46,623 bases of DNA, from the NCBI GenBank assembly GCA_001542995.1, contig LFLA01000024.1, positions 132,499 through 179,121 of the forward strand, given 5' to 3'. Shown piece by piece: positions 628 through 4,060 of the stretch (position 1 is the first letter of the stretch; the number at the start of each line of letters is the position of its first letter). The DNA comes from Nitrospina sp. LS_NOB (lineage in GTDB: Bacteria; Nitrospinota; Nitrospinia; Nitrospinales; VA-1). Below the pieces are notes generated by a model, which had not been told where the DNA came from, made no database searches, and worked only from the letters and a program-made list of their open reading frames with translations. A program made the position numbers and the translations under genes.

Positions 628-688
628 CCAGGGAGGCAGATAGTAAAGGCTTTTGTTATTCGCTTAATGGGGAGAAAGTCAAATGTAA

Positions 689-1777
689 CTAACTTAAAAG
701 TCTAAGTAGACCACGAAAGGCATAAATCTTTGCCCGGCCTGCCCGAAAGGGAAATTCGTCAATGATATTACTTTCTTTAAAAAGAGCGATTAAACGTGAA
801 ACCGTTAATGTTGATATGCCCTGGAGTTTGCGCTTTACCTGGGCAGTGGTAAAAACTGGAGCATTAAAAAGAAAGTCCACAAAATGAGTTAAATAAGGTG
901 ATTTGGTGGCTTGAAACTTTGATTTAGTTTCGTCATGAAGATTATAAATTTTATCTATCAGCTCTTGGGTTTCTTTGGCTTGTTCCGCCACACAACGAAG
1001 AAAAAACTCTATCCACACTTCGTAAGATCCAGTTTTATCTACTTCATGGAGACTGCCCCGATACGCATCTTTATTGTCATCAATATATCCACTCAAGTAT
1101 AAAATAGGTGAAGAAAGAGTTCCCTCATTGTAAAGAATTAAAGGAATGAACAGCCTCCCCAAGCGACCATTGCCGTCATAAAAAGGATGAACCGCTTCAA
1201 ATTGGTAATGAAACATGGCAACCTTAATTAAAATGTTATCTTCACTATGCTCAAGGTAATCCATGATATTGTCTACATATTCCCGGACCAAATAATGCTC
1301 AGGCGGTATGTAAAGAGCTTTTTCGATCGGATCATTTTTCTTTTTTGCAATGTACACTGTCTCTTCCCTGAACTTGCCAAGAGGTCCCTGATGCCTCACT
1401 TTCCTAAGAAGAGTAGCGTGCAGAGCTTCAATTAGAGCGCTGCCCAAGGGCCTGCCTCTTTTCAAATCATTTGTGGCCTGGTCTATGGCTATTCGATAAT
1501 TTACTACTTGTCTTGTATCAGCATCATCTTGTTTCCCTCCCGCCTCAAAAACAAATACATCCGAAACTGTGCTAACCGTTCCTTCAATTCGAGAACTTAC
1601 TGTGGCCTCTTTAGCTGTTAACGGAGAAACAAGCAAATCGGGGTTTTGTAATTTCTTCTGTGAACCTTCAAGTAAACCCAATGCGTATATGGCATCGGCA
1701 TATTCTTTATGAAAACGATTAAAATCTAAGGGGGTCTTCCCTTCAACATTGAGATGTTTGGGGTGATGATGTTCCAT
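689..1777 (-). CDS. Fic-family protein (class II, with C-terminal winged helix)
   Basis: Fic enzymes transfer AMP or related groups from nucleotides to protein hydroxyls. The 362-aa product has the full Fic motif beginning at H197 (HPFYDGNGRLGR), including the catalytic His, the acidic residue, the GNGR anion hole and the final Arg. An N-terminal inhibitory motif S-x3-E-G ends at E65-G66, which marks class II, where the inhibitory helix lies in the same chain. The last ~70 residues ('TTAQVKRKLQGISTLTVSRL') look like a winged helix-turn-helix, so it may bind DNA. The ATG at 1777 sits directly beneath the operator-like array at 1789-1973, suggesting self-regulation. It is convergent with the CcmI-like gene and stands alone. 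Target unknown. Confidence 0.9.
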   Translation of the reverse strand: MEHHHPKHLNVEGKTPLDFNRFHKEYADAIYALGLLEGSQKKLQNPDLLVSPLTAKEATVSSRIEGTVSTVSDVFVFEAGGKQDDADTRQVVNYRIAIDQATNDLKRGRPLGSALIEALHATLLRKVRHQGPLGKFREETVYIAKKKNDPIEKALYIPPEHYLVREYVDNIMDYLEHSEDNILIKVAMFHYQFEAVHPFYDGNGRLGRLFIPLILYNEGTLSSPILYLSGYIDDNKDAYRGSLHEVDKTGSYEVWIEFFLRCVAEQAKETQELIDKIYNLHDETKSKFQATKSPYLTHFVDFLFNAPVFTTAQVKRKLQGISTLTVSRLIALFKESNIIDEFPFRAGRAKIYAFRGLLRLLS

Positions 1778-1788
1778 AAAATTTATTT

Positions 1789-1973
1789 ATATATCAAAAT
1801 ATGTATTTAATGATATATCTAATGAAATAGCCTGTCTTTGATGATATGTTTAGCAATACTACATATAGTGTGAACTAACTGGGACTCCACAATATTTGCC
1901 ATTATATTATATATATATCAGAAAATCAATTTTTTGATATGTTCAAGGCTGAACTATATAACTGCTGATATAT
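1789..1973. promoter_or_regulatory. Two identical-geometry modules of TGATATRT sites upstream of the Fic gene
   Basis: The AT-rich gap 1778-2110 holds six copies of TGATATRT or its reverse complement: ATATATCA at 1789 and 1913, and TGATAT(A/G)T at 1811, 1842, 1935 and 1966. They form two modules of the same layout, ATATATCA-N14-TGATATRT-N23-TGATATRT, with start spacings 22 and 31 bp in both, offset by 124 bp. Spacer sequences are not conserved but their lengths are. Spacings of 22 and 31 bp are close to two and three helical turns, so the sites would lie on one face of the DNA. The likely reader is the Fic protein's own winged helix (inference). The remainder of the gap holds only a repeat fragment at about 2034-2066. 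Confidence 0.6.
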
Positions 1974-2110
1974 AAAATACATGTTTAAAAAACAATAAAT
2001 TATAGAAGTATGCGGCTTATGATGACGGGCTATTGTCATTCTGAGCGCCCAGCGAAGAATCTGGAGGTTGTGTAAACTTCTCTTTACTAAGGGGCAGGAC
2101 TTATCGGTGC

Positions 2111-3628
2111 TTATTTATGGTTACGCCAAAAGGGCAGTAGTAGAGTCAGCCCTAAGCACAACCAGCTGAACACATCGCCATAGGCGCTGTAGAAGGTGAG
2201 CCCGCCTTGGCGCGGGGAGATTTTTGTGATCATGGCGGCTTCGACAAAAAGTTCCGTTTCATCTTGAAGTTGGCCGTTAGCCGTGATGGTTCCGGAGATC
2301 CCGGTATTCGCTGCGCGCACGATGGGCACACGGTTTTCCACCGCCCTTAGTGCCCCCATGCTCATATGCTGGTAGCTCGCCGCACTTTTACCGAACCAGG
2401 CGTCGTTGGTGATATTGACTAAAAAATTGGCACCGTTTTTAACCGCCTGCCGTATCAGGTCGGGGAAGATTATTTCATAACAGATTGAGACCCCGGCCTT
2501 GTGTCCTGCCACATCGAACACTATCGCTTCCTCACCGCGGCCGGAGTTGCCGATCATCTCCACCATTTTTTCCACAAAGAACAATATTTTCCGGAAGGGG
2601 ACGAACTCGCCGAACGGGACCAGGTGGATTTTGTCGTAGCGGTTTTGCGTGGTACCGATTTCAGACACCAGGTAGGCGCTGTTGTAGTGGATGCTGTTTT
2701 CTTTGTAGGGACTGCCGAATAGAATGGGGATTTCGGTTTGCCGCGCCAGGTCGTTCACAAACTGGGTGCCGGGTGCGTGCTGGGTGTAGAAAAAAGGTGT
2801 GGCGGTTTCCGGCCATACGATCAGTTGCGGATTTGATTGCGCGGCCTTGAGAGTCAGGGCCCGGTATTTTGCCATGACCACCTTCTGGTAAACCGGATTC
2901 CATTTCATGGCCTGCTCGACATTGCCTTGAATCAATCCCACCGTCAGGCTGGGGCCATTGACCACGCGGTTCAGGGCAAGTCCGCCGTATCCTACCCATA
3001 GTGCCAGAACAAGAATCGTGACCGATAAAAACCGTGCTCCCATGTTGGGACTTTGTTGCCATGACTTCCAGGCCAGGTAGAGTCCGACATTGACCAGCAT
3101 GATGAGCCATGAGACGCCATACACACCGGTGATCTCGGCCATCTGAATAACCGGCAGGGTTTGGAATTGGGAGTAACCCAGCCCTAACCAGGAAAACCCG
3201 TATTCGGAGTGCGATGAACGGAGGTACTCAAAAGATGTCCACAGAACCGGCGCGAACAGGAATAACAGTCCCCTGTCATCTTTGCAGACCCTCCTTATCA
3301 GATAGCAAAAGAGTGCCGTATAGAAAGAGAGATAGGCGGCTAAAAGTCCTAGAACCATGAAACCCACAATCTGGGGAAGGTTGCCGTAGTTGATGAGGGT
3401 GTTGTTGACCCAGCTCAAGCCCCAGGTATAAAAAACCATGCCGGTGATGAATCCCAACAACGCGGAACGTTGCGGGGTTTTGGCTTCAATCGCCGAAAAA
3501 AGAGGGATAAAGGCAAACCAGGCGAGAACTTCAAAATTAAAACGCGGGAAGATCAACACCAGAAAAATCCCGCTCAAAGCGGAGAGTAGAAGCGGGCGCA
3601 GTTCTTTAAGAATTAGGTTTTTCACCAA
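2111..3628 (-). CDS. lnt: Apolipoprotein N-acyltransferase
   Basis: This enzyme adds the third acyl chain to the N-terminal cysteine of outer-membrane lipoproteins, the last step of lipoprotein maturation at the inner membrane. The 505-aa product has six to eight N-terminal hydrophobic segments, then a nitrilase-fold domain with the expected catalytic triad: E274 in 'WPETATP', K333 in 'KIHLVPFGEF' and C383 in 'SICYEI'. Spacing matches the E. coli enzyme (E267, K335, C387), and a final membrane segment closes the chain. No ATG fits the N-terminus; the frame opens with TTG at 3628 followed immediately by GTG, with no clear Shine-Dalgarno, so the start is uncertain by one or two codons. It is divergent from the small iron-sulfur gene at 3803. 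Confidence 0.95.
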   Translation of the reverse strand: MVKNLILKELRPLLLSALSGIFLVLIFPRFNFEVLAWFAFIPLFSAIEAKTPQRSALLGFITGMVFYTWGLSWVNNTLINYGNLPQIVGFMVLGLLAAYLSFYTALFCYLIRRVCKDDRGLLFLFAPVLWTSFEYLRSSHSEYGFSWLGLGYSQFQTLPVIQMAEITGVYGVSWLIMLVNVGLYLAWKSWQQSPNMGARFLSVTILVLALWVGYGGLALNRVVNGPSLTVGLIQGNVEQAMKWNPVYQKVVMAKYRALTLKAAQSNPQLIVWPETATPFFYTQHAPGTQFVNDLARQTEIPILFGSPYKENSIHYNSAYLVSEIGTTQNRYDKIHLVPFGEFVPFRKILFFVEKMVEMIGNSGRGEEAIVFDVAGHKAGVSICYEIIFPDLIRQAVKNGANFLVNITNDAWFGKSAASYQHMSMGALRAVENRVPIVRAANTGISGTITANGQLQDETELFVEAAMITKISPRQGGLTFYSAYGDVFSWLCLGLTLLLPFWRNHK

Positions 3629-3802: not shown

Positions 3803-4060
3803 TTGGAAGCAAAAAAACAATTTTTAGATAATCTCAAAAAGGTTTGCCTGTGCCGAAGCATCAAGGCGGGAACAATTATGACCGCTATTCGGGAAGGGAC
3901 GTTGACCTTTGAAGGTTTGAGAAGAAAAATCGGTGTGGGAACGGGCAATTGTAAGGCCAAACGTTGCCGGTCAAATATCGAAGCACGAATCAAGGGCCAT
4001 AAAGATAGCTTGAAAGAAGACGCTGTTGAGCCTGAAGCATCCAGCGGTCCGACCTGCTGA
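3803..4060 (+). CDS. Small BFD-like [2Fe-2S] protein
   Basis: An 85-aa protein whose core has the spacing of the bacterioferritin-associated ferredoxin (BFD) domain: C-x-C near residues 15-17 ('VCLC') and, about 32 residues later, C-x4-C ('GNCKAKRC'). Four cysteines in this spacing bind a [2Fe-2S] cluster, and the pattern 'G..T...L....G.G...C' between them is typical. In other proteins this domain either stands alone (Bfd, iron release from bacterioferritin) or is fused to oxidoreductases or NifU/NirB. No bacterioferritin gene is nearby, so its partner is unknown. The start is probably TTG at 3803 with a weak GGAA upstream. The last ~25 residues are low-complexity and run into degenerate repeat DNA. 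Confidence 0.7.
   Translation: MEAKKQFLDNLKKVCLCRSIKAGTIMTAIREGTLTFEGLRRKIGVGTGNCKAKRCRSNIEARIKGHKDSLKEDAVEPEASSGPTC

Follow-up and report, generated by a model that had tools for sequence, protein, structure and literature searches.

Sofic is counted as a single-gene phage defence, which raises the question of how cells cope with an AMPylating enzyme that is potentially toxic and comes with no partner gene. A fic gene in a 46.6-kb stretch of the source genome (G000:C10:132499-179121, hereafter the window; the genome, G000, is 2.65 Mb in size) may offer a candidate answer for its clade, namely self-repression through a private operator array that travels along with it. In a sequence-only reading of this DNA, six TGATATRT sites in two modules of the same layout, 124 bp apart, were described in front of the gene, were interpreted as sites bound by a protein and were tentatively assigned to the Fic protein itself as their reader. 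Pattern search confirmed the description: the exact octamer occurs six times in the window, at 1789, 1811, 1842, 1913, 1935 and 1966, and the six sites form two modules with spacings of 22 and 31 bp in both.

Each module is composed of a 30-bp inverted repeat and a third half-site at 31 bp, and the array is best read on the minus strand, which is that of fic, where the order within a module is half-site, 31 bp, half-site, 22 bp and inverted half-site (Table 1). Expressed in helical turns, the spacings amount to 2.10 (22 bp) and 2.95 (31 bp), values that fit arithmetically with a module whose sites all share one DNA face. The spacers had been described as conserved in length and free in sequence; the first half of this statement holds, but the N14 spacer is not free, being part of a larger dyad with a consensus of about TATATCAnAAaATnaATATTCTGATATA, most of its positions constant in at least 11 of the 12 modules from six genomes. 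The exact octamer is also too narrow a definition of the half-site, as relatives show TGATAA, or TGATAT followed by other bases.

When the 333-bp intergenic gap was subjected to 5,000 dinucleotide shuffles, none of them contained six octamers and none contained even one such triplet; chance occurrence in AT-rich DNA is ruled out by these shuffles together with the conservation described below. Across the source genome, pattern search returned 105 copies of TGATATRT, approximately one per 25 kb, and exactly two copies of ATATCA-N14-TGATAT, both upstream of fic. A single further match to the operator, with two mismatches, is located at C2:64906. The genome also contains two distantly related Fic-domain genes (G000:C10:501-794 and G000:C23:106016-106258), and the exact ATATCA-N14-TGATAT pattern is absent at both.

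Table 1. Features of the fic locus, in window coordinates.
Feature	Position	Strand	Evidence or remark
fic, 362-aa SoFic-type class II Fic protein	689..1777	-	Fic_N + Fic + C-terminal winged helix
Winged helix, codons 294-362	692..898	-	AlphaFold2, mean pLDDT 91 (model)
Catalytic Fic motif HPFYDGNGRLGR, codons 197-208, intact	1154..1189	-	translation
Class II inhibitory-helix motif (S/T)xxxE(G/N), SSRIEG, codons 61-66	1580..1597	-	translation
Proximal inverted repeat	1789..1818	-	11-40 bp before start codon; in 6/6 orthologues
Third half-site, proximal module	1842..1849	-	31 bp from inverted repeat; clear in four genomes
Predicted sigma-70-like promoter, TTGATT-N17-TATAAT	1901..1929	-	10/12 consensus positions; overlaps distal inverted repeat
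Distal inverted repeat	1913..1942	-	overlaps predicted promoter; in 6/6 orthologues
Third half-site, distal module	1966..1973	-	TATCAG core in 6/6 orthologues; retained in G002 relic
Mobile unit: operators and fic, nothing else	687..1996	-	blastn of G000 vs G032, and empty sites

The gene product is recognised by two Pfam models, in both cases above the cut-off (PF13784, E 1.4e-20; PF02661, E 8.9e-19), and by the SoFic model of PADLOC (E 1.2e-97). The closest fold to its predicted structure is SoFic chain 3eqx_B, matched over the whole length with a TM of 0.88 and 28% identity, and the fold match to the SoFic/Sofic proteins taken together (Shewanella SO_4266 and E. coli H397; 3eqx, 3zcn; PMC12249575) ranges from 0.83 to 0.88 at the same identity. 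It falls below the cut-off of the NCBIfam SoFic equivalog model NF046030 (167 vs 550 bits); the protein has the architecture and fold of SoFic, yet it does not count as a SoFic equivalog by the NCBI definition. The inhibitory motif is conserved in all aligned homologues, with E65-G66 invariant in 16 of them, and the catalytic motif, whose catalytic positions are likewise invariant in 16 homologues, conforms to HPFx(D/E)GN(G/K)R. The protein is probably a phage-defence enzyme and a putative AMPylase. That it ends in a winged helix, as first proposed, is borne out by the AlphaFold2 model, in which the predicted elements are helices at residues 294-305, 311-317, 323-335 and 355-361 and strands at 340-346 and 349-353, with the predicted recognition helix at approximately residues 323-335.

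For comparison, 77 genomes of Nitrospinota were used, in which the Fic clade consists of six full-length orthologues, that of the window included; the other five share 81, 69, 62, 57 and 55% protein identity with it and, together with it, span three genera in two families. Alignment of the upstream regions of orthologues had been set beforehand as the test of the reading, and two modules were found upstream of fic in all five of the other orthologues, the distance between inverted repeats being 124 bp in G000, G032 and G022, 125 bp in G015, and 122 bp in G051 and G006. A half-site at 31 bp accompanies every repeat. Only that of the proximal module has degenerated, in G051 and G006 (CTATATAG), and this third half-site is therefore not essential everywhere. 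The sequence between the sites has diverged, while the inverted repeats and the spacings have been held down to 55% protein identity.

The repeats are also confined to this gene. When the repeat core TATCANAAWATNNATWTTNTGATA was used as a query against the 77 genomes, with up to one mismatch counted, 12 matches were obtained, all 12 upstream of fic and two per fic genome, and none were found in the other 71 genomes of the set; the triplet pattern as first read gave five matches at the same tolerance, all of them at fic, which, with the low density of the octamer in the genome, answers the concern that such sites might recur at random in other AT-rich gaps. Conservation in all orthologues and absence elsewhere strongly support, on comparative grounds, the claim that these are protein-bound sites of fixed geometry. 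Modules from one genome are more alike than modules from different genomes (the true pairing being the best of 720, P = 0.0014), which fits one reader shaping both modules, although shared base composition may contribute. A wider regulon was rejected, as neither the source genome nor the set of 77 contained any further operator at up to one mismatch. The idea that the operator has spread to viruses was also rejected: the two operator matches in IMG/VR are the same stretch on two contigs, where one lone site falls within what appears to be coding sequence and is taken as chance. As a separate observation, G032 and G015 have an extra inverted repeat, ATATTGTAT / ATACAATAT, in the inter-module region that corresponds to about 1857-1905 of the window, and in G051 the inter-module repeat is of the CAATATRTGG type.

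The operators and fic travel as one cassette of approximately 1.3 kb with tight edges. By blastn, the source genome and G032 are 81% identical along a block of 1,313 bp that starts 219 bp ahead of the fic start codon and finishes 2 bp beyond its stop codon, and G051 and G006 have one block of 1,320 bp in common, which corresponds to operators plus gene. In the window the unit is flanked by lnt (2111-3628) and by an Ig_CycH-domain gene (13-627), and the empty site can be seen in relatives of the same genus: these flanks are separated by 1.5 kb in the window but by 86 bp in G010 and by 39 bp in G015, the fic unit of which is found on another contig. Among the matches listed, close homologues on plasmids or phages were absent, none exceeding about 36% identity.

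The intergenic region between lnt and the Ig_CycH-domain gene (window 654-2156) is an insertion place in the genus more generally, being occupied by about 0.9 kb of other DNA in G003 and G013, and by a short-chain-dehydrogenase-like gene together with a fic relic in G002. In this relic (L017:1476-1851) the distal third half-site (AACATATCAGCAGTTATATA) runs straight into fic at codon 252, and the open frame that remains, about 125 codons long, includes the winged helix. The position of the junction means that the inverted repeats, the start codon and the catalytic part were lost together, in a single deletion, which does not by itself show that the repeats depend on fic. Further along the window, on the plus strand at 3803-4060, there is a small ORF with a BFD-like [2Fe-2S] domain (PF04324, E 2.2e-9).

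As regards transcription, the sigma-70-like promoter predicted across the distal inverted repeat can be read by eye in the same form in G032, and in G015, G051 and G006 an extended -10 element, TGATATAAT, can be read by eye at the same place, where it is formed by the right half-site itself. Promoter matches of such quality are common by chance in AT-rich DNA, and the placement of the promoter is therefore something that we infer. The gap between the proximal module and the start codon is 11-32 bp across the six genomes, and transcription from the predicted promoter would place this module in the leader.

Operators kept at constant spacing in all full-length relatives and present nowhere else in their genomes make it most likely that Fic autorepresses. 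We therefore regard it as quite probable that the array is a private two-module operator through which a Fic dimer represses its own gene. The inverted repeat would bind the dimer by means of the C-terminal winged helices, its half-sites lying 22 bp, or two helical turns, apart, and the third half-site, three turns (31 bp) away, would bind a further Fic subunit cooperatively. Binding at the distal module would cover the promoter, and binding at the proximal one, which would lie in the leader close to the start codon, would either block elongation or form a loop with the distal module. The 122-125 bp between modules correspond to 11.6-11.9 turns at 10.5 bp per turn, which is no whole number, so that looping is not specially favoured. 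The outcome would be negative autoregulation, by which a potentially toxic AMPylating enzyme is kept at a low level and restored upon depletion. The original suggestion that Fic is the reader is well supported by the facts that the sites are private to fic and move with it, by the predicted winged helix and by the precedent of CccR, binding itself being what we infer from them. A coupling of nucleotide sensing to DNA binding by Fic is plausible by analogy.

The alternative that comes closest to this reading is that the sites are operators of another, resident host regulator, which would control fic upon some signal. Promoters of defence genes can be under the control of host regulators, but the operator is found nowhere else in the genomes, is missing from relatives without fic, and has kept its form across three genera of two families while moving with the gene; that a host regulator should have a single target and share the distribution of fic is improbable, and we consider this explanation unlikely. 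The mobility of the unit, evident from the empty site in genomes of the same genus, and the position of the repeats at one edge of the homologous block would also suit recombination or end sequences of a mobile cassette, such as transposon ends or att sites. The other edge, 2 bp past the stop codon, has no counterpart, the unit is without a recombinase and the proximal module is internal to it; two modules at a fixed distance over a promoter fit regulation better, and there is very little probability that the repeats are cassette ends.

Action of the repeats as RNA is equally improbable. In G000, 11 nt separate the proximal repeat, which can form an 8-bp stem, from the start codon, so that a hairpin in the mRNA leader controlling translation could be envisaged. 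However, the fold of the leader is no better than that of shuffled sequences (z +1.22; 180 of 200 shuffles at least as stable) and there is no Rfam match, results on which a structured RNA or riboswitch leader was rejected; the same sequence is, moreover, kept in the distal module over the promoter, and a hairpin would make no use of the direct half-site located 31 bp away. An ancient duplication probably made the second copy, given that 34 nt of the two modules match at 79% identity within the window, and it might be asked whether the array is merely the remnant of that event, or functionless AT-rich sequence. The failure of any shuffle to yield one triplet, and the retention of repeats and spacings where the intervening sequence has diverged, speak against this, and conservation refutes duplication or noise as the full explanation, which we hold to be extremely improbable; tandem duplication is likely to be the origin of the second module, not its function.

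An autoregulating Fic enzyme is a kind already known from CccR, which is found, with CbFic2 (8cil), among the structural relatives of the Fic model. CccR of Yersinia pseudotuberculosis is a class II Fic protein with a C-terminal HTH (PDB 7xux; PMC9755527), which footprints AGATAATCAT-N26-ATGATAATCT near its own -35/-10 elements and autorepresses, for which dimerisation is required (PMC9755527). Both proteins consist of a Fic part with an S-x-x-x-E-G inhibitory helix followed by a C-terminal HTH, both genes have a palindromic operator in the promoter (that of the window comprising two inverted repeats, the distal one over the predicted promoter), and the half-sites are alike in sequence and orientation, ATGATAATCT in CccR and TGATATRT/TGATAA in the window, pointing outward. 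The CccR operator is, however, a single 46-nt site with 10-bp arms separated by N26 and half-site starts 36 bp apart, whereas that of the window has 8-bp arms, N14, spacings of 22 and 31 bp with a third site at the latter, and is doubled. CccR is also a type VI secreted effector, whereas nothing suggests secretion of the window protein, and the two are about 20% identical by fold alignment. The statement that no such array is known for Fic genes accordingly has to be narrowed, as palindromic autorepression is published for CccR (PMC9755527), from a single site and not a doubled module. Neither a doubled operator module for a Fic gene nor multi-copy operator-like repeats before other SoFic-type genes were found described in the open-access literature; what is new here is a twin-module architecture that is conserved, confined to fic and carried along with the gene as a unit.

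A dimer with a movable C-terminal domain is reported for SoFic/Sofic proteins, and in E. coli Sofic the apo and ATP-bound forms that were compared differ in the position of this domain (PMC12249575). As of 2023, binding to DNA was undemonstrated for SoFic itself (PMC10628234). A 47-aa antitoxin gene lies downstream of E. coli Sofic, whereas in the window the homologous unit stops 2 bp after the fic stop codon and a small antitoxin gene of the Sofic-AS1 type is absent directly downstream. The Fic protein of Coxiella burnetii, CbFic2, binds DNA via its HTH, and DNA changes its enzymatic state between AMPylation and deAMPylation; this DNA-dependent activity is reported with random DNA only, and the reported target is host histone H3 (PMC10628234). 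CbFic2 and the window protein are alike in carrying a C-terminal HTH (a predicted winged helix in the latter), and CbFic2 is without a known operator. It is conceivable, if rather doubtful, that the operator DNA acts as an 'antitoxin', the array also keeping Fic dimers inactive or in a deAMPylating state, in the way that DNA acts on CbFic2, in which case active enzyme would be released upon a nucleotide shift or phage-inflicted damage to the host DNA; if this were true, lineage-specific operator arrays would be a general part of SoFic-type systems. In Phd-Doc, a toxic Fic-fold protein is combined with an operator that gives negative feedback; in the window, by contrast, toxin, inhibitor and DNA-binding domain are one polypeptide and the unit has no separate antitoxin gene.

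With autorepression by Fic as the preferred reading, a short, defined operator DNA would allow a direct test of what the SoFic winged helix does, and the array shows where to search upstream of other SoFic-type genes. Outside the Fic clade, a crude octamer-array test, which misses single palindromes, was positive for 12 of 19 homologues in a first sample and for 1 of 14 in a second, compared with 3 of 38 control genes; both samples together differ from the control (P = 0.002), the second alone does not. Universality of arrays at SoFic-type genes was rejected on these counts; judged from sequence, they are frequent in some groups. SoFic-type genes of unrelated bacteria (L015, L018, L022, L006, L019 and L025; L102, L103 and L104) have repeated inverted octamers of their own upstream, each with its own sequence and often with a fixed period (40, 41, 80 bp and others). 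These include three perfect inverted pairs of TAAGCCAA with a 40-bp period (L018), TAAGTTCG-N6-CGNACTTA three times with the same period (L015), modules repeated at 80 bp (L022) and pairs of CTGAACAT/ATGTTCAG at 41 bp in Bifidobacterium pseudolongum (L006). Three copies of ATCGACAT precede the SoFic-type gene of Methylosinus, and a near-perfect 27-bp palindrome is located upstream of that of Thermus brockianus.
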